Assembly (NCBI GenBank): GCA_030630935.1
Contig: DAOVMD010000157.1
Location: forward strand, 1-6,990
From: Candidatus Mcinerneyibacteriota bacterium
Lineage (GTDB): Bacteria > AUK180 > JAQVHJ01
Direction: 5' to 3'
DNA length: 6,990 nt
This document shows positions 203-6,699 of the stretch, piece after piece. How positions within the stretch are numbered: position 1 is the stretch's first letter; every line of letters starts with the position of its first letter. Made by a program: the position numbers and the translations under genes. The notes beneath the pieces are model-generated. The model had not been told where the DNA came from. It was given only the letters and a program-made list of their open reading frames with translations, and searched no databases.

Positions 203-2104
203 ATGGATAACTTAGATTTTAATGATTCAAAATACTATTCCAAGTTAGGTTTCATGTCTGGGCTTGAGGTTCACCAGCAGTTATTAACTGACAAGAAGCT
301 TTTTTGCCACTGCCCTATTGAATACCAGTATCATGAACCGAACGCCCGAATATTAAGACATATGCGCCCTACACTATCAGAGATGGGCACTTATGACGGT
401 ACTGCATTAATGGAATTCAAGACGAAGAAAAATGTTATATATAATCTTTTCACAGAAGTTAATTGCACCTATGAAATGGATGATACACCACCATTTTTAA
501 TTAATTCGGAAGCATTAGATATCACGATTGAGATTTGTTTTTTATTTAACTGTGCATTAACGGATGAGATTCATGTTGTCCGAAAGCAATACTTAGACGG
601 TTCAATCCCTACTGGTTTTCAGAGAACTTTAATTCTTGGGTTAGCCGGTTGGATCCCGTATAAAGGGCGTAAGATAAGAATCCGGCAGATCTCACTTGAA
701 GAAGATTCATGCCGTCAAATCTCGGACCATGGGCATACAATTAATTTTAAAGGAGACCGGCTTGGAATTCCTTTGGTTGAGGTGGTCACCGAACCTGATA
801 TGAAAACTCCGACTGAGGTTATGGAAGTTGCTGATTTAATCGGGTCAATATTGCGAGCTTCAGGAAAGGTAAGAACAGGTCTTGGTTCTACTCGCCAGGA
901 TGTAAACGTAAGTGTTCCGGGTGGTACCCGAATTGAGATCAAGGGTGTTTCAAGATTAAAATATATCCCTGCTCTCACACATTATGAAACATTACGTCAA
1001 ATTAAATTACTCGAGTTGAAAAAGGAATTTCAAATCCGTGGAATAAATAAAGACACCTTAAAAACTGAGATCAGGAAACTCACATCATTCTTAAAGAAGG
1101 AAAAGACCAAAAATCAATGGTTCAAGCAAGCCTTAAAATCTAAGCATGAGATAAAGGGAATTCTCTTGAAAGGTATTGGCGGGATATTCAATCAGGAAGT
1201 TCAACCTGGTTTCACATTTGGAGATGAGGTCTCGGGAAGAGTAAGGGTTGTTGCATGCATAGATGAACTTCCTAATATTCTCCATACAGATATGGATTCA
1301 GCGGAATTAAATATCGAACCTGAGGAACTGGTTAAAATTAAAAAATTATTTGGTTTCAAGACTCCGGATATTTTAGTCTTTACCCGGGGAGAGAATGAAG
1401 ATGTTGAGATGGCATTGGGCGAGATTAAATTAAGGGTACTTGACGCAATTGATGGAGTTCCACCTGAAACCAGGCAGGCATTCCCTAATGGATTTACAGA
1501 TTTTGAAAGGATTTTACCCGGGCCTGATAGGATGTATCCTGATACAGATCATCCACCGCAACAGCTGAAAAAAGAACGGATGAAAAAAATTAAAAAGGCT
1601 ATTAAAAACAGGTATGTTGACCAATACAAAAAATTAAAGGATTCATTTAAGATTCCGGAAGAATATTTAAAGAAATTTATTCTGTCAGATAGATCTATTT
1701 TAATTCAATCATTAATTAAGAAAAAAGTTAAACCTGAACATATAAATTTTATTTTATTTGAGATATTTACATATTTGAGAAGAAAAGGCTATTCAGCTTC
1801 GAAGTTTACAGACCAGGAGTTAGAAGATTTATTTTCCAGGATTCAATCCAATACCATTCATATTTCTGAAGTTCGTAAGCTTTTACAGGAATCATTTGAA
1901 AAACAAATTTCTTTAAATGAAATCATCAAAAATTATAAAAACGCAAAATCTCTTGATGATTTGAAGAAGGAGATTAAAAAGTTGTTTAAGAGCAGCAAGT
2001 CAAAAAACATAAATTTCATTTTAGGAGAATTAAGAAAAACATTTCCTGAAACAATTCTTTATGCGAAAGCCTTAAATAAATTTATAGAATCACAGGTAGG
2101 TTAA
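203..2104 (+). CDS. gatE: Archaeal-type Glu-tRNA(Gln) amidotransferase subunit E (GatE)
   Basis: GatE is the ATP-dependent kinase/amidase-transfer subunit. It phosphorylates the glutamate on misacylated Glu-tRNA(Gln) and amidates it with ammonia from GatD, giving Gln-tRNA(Gln) in the cytoplasm. At 633 residues it has the normal GatE length and is clearly longer than bacterial GatB. The GatB/E cradle has GLEVHQQL (20-27), a CxC pair (C35, C37), LDGSIPTGFQR (131-141), LEEDSCR (165-171), PLVEVVTEPD (190-199) and GLGSTRQDVNVSV (226-238) followed by EIKGV. The DGS..TGFQR form is typical of GatE rather than GatB. An AspRS-like insertion absent from GatB spans roughly 270-420, with HTD at 361-363 and GVPPETRQAFP at 418-428. 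The GatE signature LPGPDRMYPDTDHPP follows at 438-452. Residues about 455-633 are the lysine-rich helical and YqeY-like tail, which is divergent. gatD follows 2 nt downstream. The family call is very secure. Confidence 0.96.
   Translation: MDNLDFNDSKYYSKLGFMSGLEVHQQLLTDKKLFCHCPIEYQYHEPNARILRHMRPTLSEMGTYDGTALMEFKTKKNVIYNLFTEVNCTYEMDDTPPFLINSEALDITIEICFLFNCALTDEIHVVRKQYLDGSIPTGFQRTLILGLAGWIPYKGRKIRIRQISLEEDSCRQISDHGHTINFKGDRLGIPLVEVVTEPDMKTPTEVMEVADLIGSILRASGKVRTGLGSTRQDVNVSVPGGTRIEIKGVSRLKYIPALTHYETLRQIKLLELKKEFQIRGINKDTLKTEIRKLTSFLKKEKTKNQWFKQALKSKHEIKGILLKGIGGIFNQEVQPGFTFGDEVSGRVRVVACIDELPNILHTDMDSAELNIEPEELVKIKKLFGFKTPDILVFTRGENEDVEMALGEIKLRVLDAIDGVPPETRQAFPNGFTDFERILPGPDRMYPDTDHPPQQLKKERMKKIKKAIKNRYVDQYKKLKDSFKIPEEYLKKFILSDRSILIQSLIKKKVKPEHINFILFEIFTYLRRKGYSASKFTDQELEDLFSRIQSNTIHISEVRKLLQESFEKQISLNEIIKNYKNAKSLDDLKKEIKKLFKSSKSKNINFILGELRKTFPETILYAKALNKFIESQVG
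2094..2100 (+). promoter_or_regulatory. Ribosome binding site of gatD inside the gatE end
   Basis: AGGTAGG overlaps the last codons of gatE and ends 6 nt before the gatD ATG at 2107. With only 2 nt between the gatE stop and this ATG, it implies coupled translation of the two subunits from one transcript. Confidence 0.7.
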
Positions 2105-2106
2105 TT

Positions 2107-3495
2107 ATGAATGATAAAGAGAGATTCAAAGGTTATAAAAAAAATGTAATTAAGAAGTTAAAGAAATTTAATGTTAGGGTTTGGTCGGATATTACCATAA
2201 AAACAAACCAGGGATTATTTGAAGGGGTAATTCTTCCCCGGTCAGAAACTTCTCCTGATGGTTATGTCGTTTTAAAATTAATTACAGGTTATAACATAGG
2301 CATTGATATTGAGAATATAATAGAAATGAAAGAGACTGGTTTTAAAGAAGCTCATTATAAGATCCCCGAATCTGATTTTCCTGTTGATGAGAACAAGCCT
2401 TATGTAACCTTACTTGGTACAGGCGGAACGATTGCAAGTAGACTTGATTATAGAACCGGAGCAGTTATTCCCGCATTCTCGCCGGGAGAATTGTACGGTG
2501 CAGTTCCTGAGCTTGCGGACATTGCAAATTTAAAGACAATAAAACTTTTTGGTGTATTTAGTGAGAACATGGGTCCGGAGCAATGGATAGGTACTGCAAA
2601 CGCGATTGGGGAAGAAGTAAAAAATGGTGTAGATGGAATTGTTATTGGTCACGGCACAGATACAATGCATCACACTGCAGGAATTCTTTCTTTCATGGTT
2701 CAGGATTCTCCCGTGCCGATTATCATGGTTGGCTCACAAAGGTCAAGTGACAGGCCATCTTCTGATGCAGCATTTAATTTGAGGTCAGCAGTCTATGCCG
2801 CAGCTCATGGTGATATTGCAGAAGTCATGGTTTGTATGTTTGGACCGACCAGTGAGAAATATAATCTACTTCATCGAGGTACACGGGTTCGAAAGATGCA
2901 TTCATCAACAAGAAATACTTTTAGAACAATTGGGGATGTACCTGTGGCAATGGTTACACCGGAGAAATTAACTCATATTCATAAAGATGTTAAGTTACGA
3001 AGGAAAGATAAGAAAATTAAAATTGATACGTTATATAATGATAAAGTTGCAATGGTCTATTATTATCCTGATATGAAACCGGATATTATAGAATCATTAA
3101 TTGATAATAATTATAAAGGCATTGTCATTGCAGGAACCGGTTTGGGACATGTTAACAAACCTCTTTATGAGCCCTTGAAGCTCGCAAGGAAAAAAGGGAT
3201 TGTTGTTTTCATGACTGTTCAAACCTTGTGGGGATTTACTCAGATGTATGTGTATGATACGGGTAGAGACTTGATGGATTATGGAGTTGTACCGGTAGAA
3301 AATATGATACCTGAAGTTGCTTATGTTAAATTAGGCTGGGTATTAGGACATACTTCAGACCGGGATAAGGTAATTGAAATGATGCTTACACCTATCGCAG
3401 GTGAAATAACTGAAAGGGAACCTGAGAATGGGTACTTGATATTCCAGGGCGGAACACCAGAGATAAGTAAGTTCCTAAAAAATAATCTAAGATAA
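2107..3495 (+). CDS. gatD: Archaeal-type Glu-tRNA(Gln) amidotransferase subunit D (GatD)
   Basis: GatD is the asparaginase-like subunit that hydrolyses glutamine (or asparagine) and passes ammonia to GatE. It is not the GatA-type amidase of bacterial GatCAB. An N-terminal small beta-barrel (about 20-80, with GLFEGVILPRSE and KLITGYNIGI), characteristic of GatD, precedes the two-part L-asparaginase fold (about 97-455). Catalytic positions look intact: T108 in GTGGTIAS, T184-D185 in GHGTDTM (181-187), and K263 in RKMHSSTRNTF (262-272). The segments TVQTLWGF (370-377) and PEVAYVKLGWVLGHT (402-416) are GatD-like hallmarks and separate it from a free asparaginase. Its 462 residues are slightly longer than typical archaeal GatD, mainly in loops and a charged stretch near 293-306. 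It sits directly behind gatE, matching a heteromeric GatDE enzyme. The order gatE-gatD and 2-nt spacing indicate an operon. Confidence 0.96.
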   Translation: MNDKERFKGYKKNVIKKLKKFNVRVWSDITIKTNQGLFEGVILPRSETSPDGYVVLKLITGYNIGIDIENIIEMKETGFKEAHYKIPESDFPVDENKPYVTLLGTGGTIASRLDYRTGAVIPAFSPGELYGAVPELADIANLKTIKLFGVFSENMGPEQWIGTANAIGEEVKNGVDGIVIGHGTDTMHHTAGILSFMVQDSPVPIIMVGSQRSSDRPSSDAAFNLRSAVYAAAHGDIAEVMVCMFGPTSEKYNLLHRGTRVRKMHSSTRNTFRTIGDVPVAMVTPEKLTHIHKDVKLRRKDKKIKIDTLYNDKVAMVYYYPDMKPDIIESLIDNNYKGIVIAGTGLGHVNKPLYEPLKLARKKGIVVFMTVQTLWGFTQMYVYDTGRDLMDYGVVPVENMIPEVAYVKLGWVLGHTSDRDKVIEMMLTPIAGEITEREPENGYLIFQGGTPEISKFLKNNLR

Positions 3496-3516: not shown

Positions 3517-6500
3517 TTATATGTACAGCCTTTCGGTTTTGGAGAAGCGCTCAAATTCTGCAGAAGTAACTTTTTTCAATCTTCTTGATAGAACATTAAA
3601 AATCTCAAATGAAAGCTCAGGATTATTATAAATTAAGTCCCTGAATTTCTTCTTATTTATCATCAGTATCTCACAATCCTCAATTGCCCTAATATCTGCG
3701 GATGTTAATTCATTAGTGAAGATTGACATTTCCCCGAAAAATTCCCCTTGATTAAGTTCTGCAATTCTAACCCATTCATCCTTTATCTGTCTCCCTACTA
3801 AAGCTTTACCTTTGGTAATAATATATAACGCTTTTCCTTCCTCATTTTCACAGATTATCAAGTCACCCTGATTATAAATCTTAAAATTCGAAATCATACT
3901 TATCTTCAATAATGAATCCAGATTCATACTTTTAAATAAAGGAATATCCTTTAAAAAGACCAGACGATTAATAACAGTTATCATTTCTTTTACTCCTTCT
4001 TTATTAAAAATAGTTTCATATTTTTTAAATTTCTCAATTGATATTTCTTTTAATATTAATGTATTTATCACTGCATCAAAAAGTGAACCTGTCTCGATAT
4101 CACTCTTTAAAATATTTACCGGATCATCGAAATTCAGGAAATACTCTTTAAAATATTCTAATTTCTCATGAAGCTCAATGTACTCAAATAAGTCAACAAT
4201 AATATTTGTATTTTGAATAATATCCTGACTATTTAAAATATTTTCAAATAGCTCCAGGGCAACTGCCTTCAATTCAATGTTATCAGATAAAATCTGCAGC
4301 CTGACCTTCTCCATTCCTTCACCGGGTAAAATGAGAAATATTAAGTCTAATAAATTCTTTTCATAAGATTCTAATTTCTCAAGGTGATATAATGAGAACA
4401 AACTGATCAATGACTGTTCTTCAGACTGTGTTAACATTTTTAAGATAAATAGTTCTTCAATAATCTTATTAAAAATTAATTTATACCACCTGATATAGCT
4501 TCTGTTAATATTATCTTTAAAATAAAGTTCCCATAAATTGGAATCTAACTTTTCCTTAATTTTAACCATAACACTAATTTTCTCCGCCAGTTCAAGATCA
4601 TCTGTAAACTCTTCTTTTTCAGCGAACATATCCATTGTTTTAACATCTCTGATAAATGGAAGGCTAATCCATAACTTTCGACGCACATCATTCTCATAGT
4701 TGTTGATGTTGGAAAATATTTTATAGATTAGTTTTCTATTCATATTTGCAATTTCTGAAATTATTAAATCAATTGAACAAAGGGATGTTAATGAAGAAAC
4801 CACTTTTGAATATCCGATTTCAATTTCATATCTGATAATGATACTTAAAACCAAGCTTGATATTTTTTCATCTCTTTCATTAATGAATCTTTTAATCTCT
4901 TCTTGAAGACCGAATATTCCTACGCTCTTAATAACTTGAAGAGCAGTAGTTTGCTTTTCCTGGGAATCATAGAGCAAATCCTTTAAAATATCCGCGATAA
5001 AATCATTATATTTATTCTTAGCGCCATGTACCAATAAATCCAAACTTAAAATAAAACTTTCTGGGTCGGGTTCCATTCTAACCCAATCACAGAGAAACCC
5101 TTCGATTTTGCTAAATGAGATATCTGCAAAACACATTAGGATTGCTTGCCTTTGTTCAGAATTACCTTTAATAAATAGTTCATTTACCCTATTAAGTAAA
5201 TAATTATTATCAATTTCTCGTAATAGGATTCTAATTGCTAAATGTTGAAGTGCCGGATTGCCCTTTTCAAATATTTCAAAAACAATTTCATTAAATTGCC
5301 TAATATCATGCTTCTCTATCATCTCTAACGCGAATTGAATAAATGGATCTGAATTTGAGTTCAGGAGACCTAAAATAATTTCTCTGGATTCGCCTGAAGC
5401 ATGTTCAAACATCTGCTCAAAAATCTTCTCCTTATTTTCATTGCTATCTAAAACCAAACTTTCAATTAAAACCTTTTTATATTCCTTCTTCATAGCGATA
5501 TTAGTGATTAACCAGGCAAACGAAAATAACATAATTATAATGGAGATTATGATATAGTAATCACTTGATAGTTTAATTAAAAGTAGAATTACAATACTTG
5601 CGAAGCAGATAAATACCGGTTTTATCATCCCTTCAAGAAAGGCTCTAAGTTTTTCCCGAACTTTCTCATTTAAGGGTGAATAGAAAATATGATTTAATGA
5701 CCTTTCAAATGTATGTAAAACAAATTCATTTCCAAACCGTGCAAATAATCCTGAGTAAAAGCCGCCGATTACAGCTAAAAAACCGCCACTGAAAAACATT
5801 AAAATAGGATGAATCATAATTATCTTGGTAAAACCGATTTTCCTGATAAGGACGGATAAAATAAAGATATTGAAAAGAGTAAAGAATAAACTCATACTCC
5901 CCTTAAATATTCCAAGAAACGAAGAGAATTCTTCCTCTGTTAAAAATTTATGAGATGTGATATCATGGAATTTAAAATCAATTAACCATTCAATTGAAAT
6001 TGAGAAAAAAATAATTAAGACCAGGAGAATAAGGTATTTGTTTTTTGTTAATTTATTTATAAAATATTTTAAATCGACATCCTCCTCTTTCATTAAGAAA
6101 ATATTCTCAGGATCCTTTTCAGCTTCCTGAACACTTTTCTTTAGCAGCAGCATAACAATAATATTAATAGAAAAAATTCCTCCGGATACTGCGATCATCA
6201 TTTTTACACCGATAATTTCAGGAAGGAAACTCATGATAATAACGGCAATAACCCCACCTACCCCGATTCCCGAAGCAACGATTGATATTAATCTTTTTTC
6301 CTGACGAATATTAAATATAAAACTAAATAATGCAGCAAATATTATCATACTGAAGTTATCAATAATCTCAACTATTGCTGCCATAATTGGAATTGTCGTT
6401 CTCCATTCAGCTAAGGCTGAGGCTATTAATAATAATAAGGAAAATAGAATTATTATCCAGGTAAAAAGTTTAACTCTATTCCATTTATCAATTATCCGGG

Positions 6501-6699
6501 TATATAAAAATATTCCAAATATCAAAAATATCGCATTCAGGATATACATGAAAGGATAATTCTGAATACCTAATTCCTTAATGAAAATTGCATTCCTGGA
6601 ATTTTCTGCAATAATTACAGCAGTTGAAACAATTGTTAAAAATAAAAACATTAATAAAACTTTTCGTTTCTCATCTGATTTAATTTTTAAAAAATCCAT
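3517..6699 (-). CDS. ATP/ADP-translocase-like membrane protein with helical-repeat and degenerate cNMP-binding domains
   Basis: This 1060-residue protein has three parts. Residues 1-405 are an integral membrane module with about 11-12 hydrophobic helices (for example 13-32, 47-66, 79-97, 103-128, 137-160, 164-187, 221-241, 265-285, 290-316, 358-378, 380-402). It resembles the ATP/ADP-translocase (TLC, Npt-like) branch of the major facilitator fold, with an N-terminal block around RNAIFIKELGIQNYPFMYIL. Residues about 410-905 are soluble, leucine-rich paired helices of HEAT-like solenoid type. Residues about 913-1042 are a cNMP-binding/CRP-type beta-roll, with LFKSM, KIYNQGDLII, ALYIITKGKA and FGEMSIF (988-994). 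The phosphate-contacting arginine of the R-(S/A)-A motif is T999 here, so cyclic nucleotide binding is doubtful. No helix-turn-helix follows, so it is not a transcription factor. The substrate is unknown and nucleotide transport should not be assumed. It is convergent with gatD and follows the Hpt gene closely. Confidence 0.8.
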   Translation of the reverse strand: MDFLKIKSDEKRKVLLMFLFLTIVSTAVIIAENSRNAIFIKELGIQNYPFMYILNAIFLIFGIFLYTRIIDKWNRVKLFTWIIILFSLLLLIASALAEWRTTIPIMAAIVEIIDNFSMIIFAALFSFIFNIRQEKRLISIVASGIGVGGVIAVIIMSFLPEIIGVKMMIAVSGGIFSINIIVMLLLKKSVQEAEKDPENIFLMKEEDVDLKYFINKLTKNKYLILLVLIIFFSISIEWLIDFKFHDITSHKFLTEEEFSSFLGIFKGSMSLFFTLFNIFILSVLIRKIGFTKIIMIHPILMFFSGGFLAVIGGFYSGLFARFGNEFVLHTFERSLNHIFYSPLNEKVREKLRAFLEGMIKPVFICFASIVILLLIKLSSDYYIIISIIIMLFSFAWLITNIAMKKEYKKVLIESLVLDSNENKEKIFEQMFEHASGESREIILGLLNSNSDPFIQFALEMIEKHDIRQFNEIVFEIFEKGNPALQHLAIRILLREIDNNYLLNRVNELFIKGNSEQRQAILMCFADISFSKIEGFLCDWVRMEPDPESFILSLDLLVHGAKNKYNDFIADILKDLLYDSQEKQTTALQVIKSVGIFGLQEEIKRFINERDEKISSLVLSIIIRYEIEIGYSKVVSSLTSLCSIDLIISEIANMNRKLIYKIFSNINNYENDVRRKLWISLPFIRDVKTMDMFAEKEEFTDDLELAEKISVMVKIKEKLDSNLWELYFKDNINRSYIRWYKLIFNKIIEELFILKMLTQSEEQSLISLFSLYHLEKLESYEKNLLDLIFLILPGEGMEKVRLQILSDNIELKAVALELFENILNSQDIIQNTNIIVDLFEYIELHEKLEYFKEYFLNFDDPVNILKSDIETGSLFDAVINTLILKEISIEKFKKYETIFNKEGVKEMITVINRLVFLKDIPLFKSMNLDSLLKISMISNFKIYNQGDLIICENEEGKALYIITKGKALVGRQIKDEWVRIAELNQGEFFGEMSIFTNELTSADIRAIEDCEILMINKKKFRDLIYNNPELSFEIFNVLSRRLKKVTSAEFERFSKTERLYI

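Follow-up and report, generated by a model that had tools for sequence, protein, structure and literature searches.

A 2022 review (PMC9499178) restricts present-day GatDE to archaea and states that no archaeon has GlnRS. It attributes both to co-evolution: GatDE evolved together with an archaeal tRNA(Gln) that is no substrate for GlnRS, and the enzyme reads the D-loop and the A1:U72 pair of that tRNA. The 6,990-nt stretch of DNA analysed here, which we refer to as the window, carries adjacent gatE and gatD genes in a genome of bacterial appearance. This raises the question of whether the two genes encode a true GatDE, whether they came from archaea, and what they contribute in their host. In the literature searched, no title or abstract dealt with GatDE in bacteria; such proteins would already receive names from NCBI's automatic models.

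The window encodes intact GatE and GatD

The window contains two complete, co-directional open reading frames 2 nt apart, with the following features in and around them.

138–166, + strand: promoter-like site 5' of gatE, TTTACT-17-TATAAT with TG ahead of the second hexamer (consensus scan only)
193–198, + strand: AGAGGA, resembling a ribosome-binding site, 4 nt before the gatE ATG (read from the sequence)
203–2104, + strand: gatE, 633 aa, with a cradle/catalytic domain, an AspRS-like GAD insertion, and a helical and YqeY-like tail (profiles, alignment, model)
2107–3495, + strand: gatD, 462 aa, with a GatD_N barrel and a type I asparaginase-like domain (profiles, alignment)
3517–6699, − strand: 1060-aa MFS-like protein with a long middle region and a C-terminal cyclic-nucleotide-binding domain, a convergent neighbour outside the GatDE system (Pfam; order shared with STE_202, see below)

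Both proteins were identified by curated NCBIfam models with equivalog-level cut-offs. GatE scored 526 bits against NF003107 (cut-off 456) and 440 bits against TIGR00134 (cut-off 320), and GatD scored 502 bits against NF003217 (cut-off 310) and 500 bits against TIGR02153 (cut-off 324). Between them the two proteins exceeded the Pfam cut-offs for GatB_N, GatB_Yqey, Asparaginase N and C, and GatD_N; the GAD insertion of GatE, at 20.5 bits, lay slightly below its cut-off of 23.4. An AlphaFold model of GatE built from 42 sequences (mean pLDDT 87.7, pTM 0.85) retrieved as its top structural matches the GatE chains in the GatDE crystal structures from P. abyssi (1zq1) and M. thermautotrophicus (2d6f), with E 1e-44 to 1e-41. 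The GatD catalytic set, Thr108, Thr184, Asp185 and Lys263, is identical in 68 of 68 GatD proteins. Residues His24, Glu166 and Glu193 of GatE, which correspond to the catalytic residues His15, Glu157 and Glu184 in the enzyme of M. thermautotrophicus, show a conservation of at least 95% within each of the two GatE types described below (83 and 30 proteins). With the GatB-like catalytic domain, AspRS-like insertion, YqeY-like tail, and catalytic His and two Glu all present in GatE, and the N-terminal barrel and an asparaginase-like domain bearing Thr, Thr, Asp and Lys in GatD, we confirmed that both proteins of the window are full-length, that their catalytic residues are in place and that the GatE fold is intact.

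A reading of the window made from its sequence alone had described an intact gatE and gatD in a 2-nt-spaced operon, and had singled out the GatE insertion and the GatD barrel as family signatures. The open reading frame coordinates proved exact, and the signatures were borne out with GAD just under the Pfam threshold. What it said of the surroundings stood only in part. The bacterial-looking promoter is plausible as the site at 138–166, but promoter-like sites in the region were no more numerous than in shuffled sequence (16 versus 14.4), and a terminator scan yielded nothing beyond shuffles. The neighbour described as a TLC-like/cNMP fusion did match cNMP_binding, but its N-terminus is MFS_1 and matched no TLC model, and the supposed Hpt-domain neighbour is a 64-aa fragment with no Pfam or NCBIfam match at E<=0.001.

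The host of the window is a bacterium

The host assembly (G000, in which the window is contig C205) comprises 3.16 Mb in 471 contigs and is 80% complete with 1.6% contamination. Because other contigs of this genome encode trigger factor, a sigma-70 family factor, DnaX, RecA and IspE, as well as bacterial-type GluRS and AspRS, we place the host in Bacteria, as its appearance had suggested. A MAG of the same family, STE_202 (G001, locus L064), has gatE, gatD and the convergent MFS/cNMP gene in the same order, with 66%, 86% and 47% identity, respectively, to the proteins of the window. This shared gene order argues against a chimeric contig and against a very recent arrival. The GC contents of gatE (35.2%) and gatD (37.6%) also fit that of the whole genome (34.9%). 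Archaeal markers or a chimeric assembly, either of which the sequence-only reading had named as grounds for abandoning a bacterial GatDE, were therefore not what we found.

The GatE tree supports a separate, mainly bacterial branch

Relatives of GatE were taken from 80 named genomes, among which the carriers bear the labels Ignavibacteria, Bacteroidetes, Acidobacteria, Myxococcota, Krumholzibacteriota, Neomarinimicrobiota, Cloacimonetes, Zixibacteriota, WOR-3, Planctomycetota, Fermentibacteria and others, plus Thermoplasmatota. The window GatE belongs to a subfamily that spans about twelve bacterial phyla and part of the Thermoplasmatota. When 15 further archaeal GatE were included in the tree, this subfamily formed a separate clade of 60 rows (SH-aLRT 100) on a stem of 1.19 changes per column. 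The window GatE is 31–37% identical to canonical archaeal GatE, as against the 66% shared with its nearest bacterial relative, and the closest protein after that of STE_202 is a Thermoplasmatota GatE (47% over the whole protein). At 26 columns the two GatE types are each at least 85% conserved but with different residues. These columns cluster at 89–98, 129–136 and 423–447, and such switches could mean a changed substrate.

The window system thus has two subunits, domain order, fold and catalytic residues in common with the archaeal GatDE of P. abyssi (1zq1) and M. thermautotrophicus (2d6f), but differs in the clade, identity and switch residues of its GatE, in its bacterial host, and in a U1-A72 tRNA(Gln) and a GlnRS encoded in the same genome. 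The label "archaeal-type" given to it by the sequence-only reading does not hold, whereas the second option offered there, that a bacterial lineage has a GatDE branch of its own, agrees with the GatE tree, except that GatE, far from being peculiar to one lineage, is present in many bacterial phyla. The window and STE_202 proteins form a deep branch within the clade, and AU tests rejected none of three placements for it: next to Thermoplasmatota, in one group with all bacteria, or basal within the subfamily. An origin of the subfamily in bacteria or in archaea, and hence either direction of an ancient transfer, would fit the tree.

Both genes were seen at 71 loci, and at 64 of these gatE and gatD lie on the same strand, often with a 4-nt overlap; the other seven are five archaeal and two Planctomycetota loci. 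The Thermoplasmatota GatDE of the subfamily (L065–L070 and others) have the same GatE clade and switch residues as the window, but their gatE and gatD genes are divergent where those of the window form an operon. A much more divergent GatDE, with gatD before gatE, is found in a bacterium (G012, L146 2294–5565); it lies outside the bacterial-type clade and is 31% (GatE) and 42% (GatD) identical to the window proteins.

The host and most other GatE-carrying bacteria also encode GlnRS

The host genome encodes GlnRS (770 bits), two GluRS, a bacterial AspRS and AsnRS (486 bits), and so does not do without GlnRS. In this 80% complete genome no match to PF01425, the amidase family of GatA, was detected; the sole PF02934 match is GatE itself, and TIGR00133, the GatB model, had no match. 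The proposed check for glnS, gatA and gatB therefore recovered the first gene and not the GatA and GatB pair of bacterial GatCAB. GatB was likewise not found in STE_202, which is also incomplete. Assuming independent losses, gatB would be missed in both family genomes with a chance of about 0.2 x 0.28; a double miss is possible but unlikely.

The sister family within the same class (f2) has GatB and no GatE, and each of the host's two GluRS is orthologous to one of the two GluRS found there. Two f2 genomes, 95–96% complete, are without GlnRS and presumably depend on amidation. GlnRS and GatB occur together in three genomes (G003, G005 and G006). The host AspRS has Leu at a position linked to discrimination; non-discriminating AspRS carries His at that position, as does the AspRS of one other genome (G009).

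Among 46 other named GatE-carrying bacteria of unstated completeness, GlnRS exceeded its cut-off in 40, GatB was present in 18, and six had neither, although contamination of MAGs could inflate some of these co-occurrences. The six include STE_202. Of 251 bacterial genomes sampled, 19 had a GatE-like protein as their best GatB_N match, an approximate class since it was sorted by profile score; GlnRS was found in 13 of these 19 GatE-only genomes and in 92 of the 232 others (p 0.027, kinship ignored). One genome listed as 100% complete (G031) encodes GlnRS and GatE and has no GluRS by the class Ic synthetase model, owing to a missing contig or a genuine oddity.

tRNA(Gln) in the host is of the bacterial U1-A72 type

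The identity of the 1-72 pair had been raised as a further check, and both tRNA(Gln) of the host (CUG and UUG) have the bacterial U1-A72, with G73. In eight other GatE-carrying genomes the complete UUG tRNA(Gln) was read and likewise has U1-A72; one of the eight carries A73. At two Thermoplasmatota and two Deltaproteobacteria loci, a tRNA-Gln(CUG) gene lies 30–120 nt from gatE (L065 3692–3765; L068 7866–7940; L102 5660–5731; L109 5792–5863), those of the Thermoplasmatota being A1-U72. This adjacency hints at a functional link and is not proof of one. A dedicated tRNA beside every gatE was considered and rejected: a tRNA covariance model applied to 88 sources placed a tRNA within about 200 nt in six loci only, and it found none in the window. 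Where gatE has a tRNA neighbour, this is usually tRNA-Gln and not tRNA-Asn.

One genome (G040) has, 90 nt upstream of gatE (L150 4136–4210, + strand), a tRNA(Gln)-like body (U1-A72, G73, CCA) with an anticodon read as UUA (ochre) and C37. Genes of this genome end in TAA as often as in TAG or TGA, with no sign of recoding, and the tRNA may be a decaying gene.

GatDE probably amidates Glu-tRNA(Gln) alongside GlnRS

We consider that the window probably encodes a true GatDE that amidates Glu-tRNA(Gln), a member of a divergent subfamily found mainly in bacteria, and that this enzyme stands in the place of GatCAB and works in parallel to GlnRS. The analyses above establish what the genes are, their catalytic residues and fold, the content of the genome, the sequences of its tRNAs and the orthology of its GluRS. 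By analogy with the established biochemistry of GatDE, one of the host's two GluRS would load Glu onto U1-A72 tRNA(Gln), GatD would free ammonia from glutamine or asparagine, and GatE would use ATP to activate the Glu side chain and then amidate it, yielding Gln-tRNA(Gln). GatB and GatE are homologous and presumably hold the same place in the Glu-tRNA(Gln) route; unlike GatCAB, however, the enzyme of the window would draw its ammonia from an asparaginase-type GatD, not from an amidase. We infer that U1-A72 tRNA(Gln) is the substrate of this amidation and that GatDE replaced GatCAB: an ancestral route of the class with two GluRS and GatCAB, in which GatDE took over from GatCAB in the family of the window, is the simplest reading, since f2 has GatB, no GatE and the two orthologous GluRS. 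GlnRS would run alongside GatDE as it may beside GatB in the three genomes noted above. Some subfamily genomes elsewhere have GatE with neither GatB nor GlnRS, and the tRNA-Gln(CUG) genes beside gatE at four loci also favour this reading. Against it, the presence of GlnRS means that amidation is not needed for Gln-tRNA(Gln), the 26 switch residues could reflect a different substrate, and gatCAB could have been missed in a genome that is 80% complete. A further step, that bacterial-type GatDE is functionally distinct, has become adapted to tRNA(Gln) of the U1-A72 type, perhaps serving the CUG isoacceptor alone, and has long coexisted with GlnRS in bacteria and some Thermoplasmatota so that each cell has two routes, is tentative and we regard it as doubtful.

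The frequent company of GlnRS suits a role in fidelity, in which GlnRS would make nearly all Gln-tRNA(Gln) and GatDE would repair Glu-tRNA(Gln) mischarged by a poorly discriminating GluRS; both the 40 of 46 named bacteria and, kinship ignored, the excess of GlnRS in GatE-only genomes point that way. We nevertheless think this unlikely, since the retention of an orthologous second GluRS throughout the class points to deliberate charging, and genomes with GatE but without GlnRS and GatB exist, several of them incomplete or of unstated completeness. Bacteria that have both GlnRS and GatCAB, Bdellovibrio among them, use GatCAB to turn Asp-tRNA(Asn) into Asn-tRNA(Asn) (PMC4206432). GatDE could by the same token serve asparagine, and the His-type AspRS of G009 would be in keeping with this. 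In the host such a role is not called for, because AsnRS is present and the AspRS is of the Leu type and apparently discriminating. The usual tRNA neighbour of gatE speaks for glutamine as well, and GatDE is not known to act on anything but Glu-tRNA(Gln), which makes an asparagine route improbable. Least credible of all is that the genes were recently acquired from archaea or lie on an archaeal contig that contaminates the assembly: although GatDE has been described as archaeal and a Thermoplasmatota GatE is the closest after STE_202, the gene order and 66% GatE identity shared with STE_202, the GC content of the two genes and the low identity to canonical archaeal GatE all oppose it.

GatDE and GlnRS are not mutually exclusive

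With GatDE widespread in bacteria, and mostly beside GlnRS, the rule of mutual exclusion fails, and this coexistence makes the idea of co-evolution directly testable. Bacterial genomes have been sorted into five classes by GluRS copies, GlnRS and gatCAB (PMC3927822); two GluRS and GlnRS without gatCAB fall outside these classes. The bacteria with GluRS2 and GlnRS described there resemble the host in having two GluRS and GlnRS, but carry gatCAB. Surveys of this kind, which infer the route to Gln-tRNA(Gln) from GlnRS and gatCAB alone, would misclassify GatE-carrying genomes.

Two Thermoplasmatota, G062 (CP070739.1, a single chromosome) and G061 (ex4572_165), encode GlnRS (L281 6426–8120, − strand; L282 4187–5872, − strand) together with an archaeal-type GluRS and a GatE of the subfamily, so that both Thermoplasmatota genomes tested resemble the host in this respect. 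This goes against the statement in PMC9499178 that no archaeon has GlnRS. In G062, the GlnRS gene has a tRNA-Gln(CUG) of the A1-U72 type about 250 nt away. Of 70 archaeal genomes sampled among the relatives of G061, 31 had no GatE match at E 1e-60.
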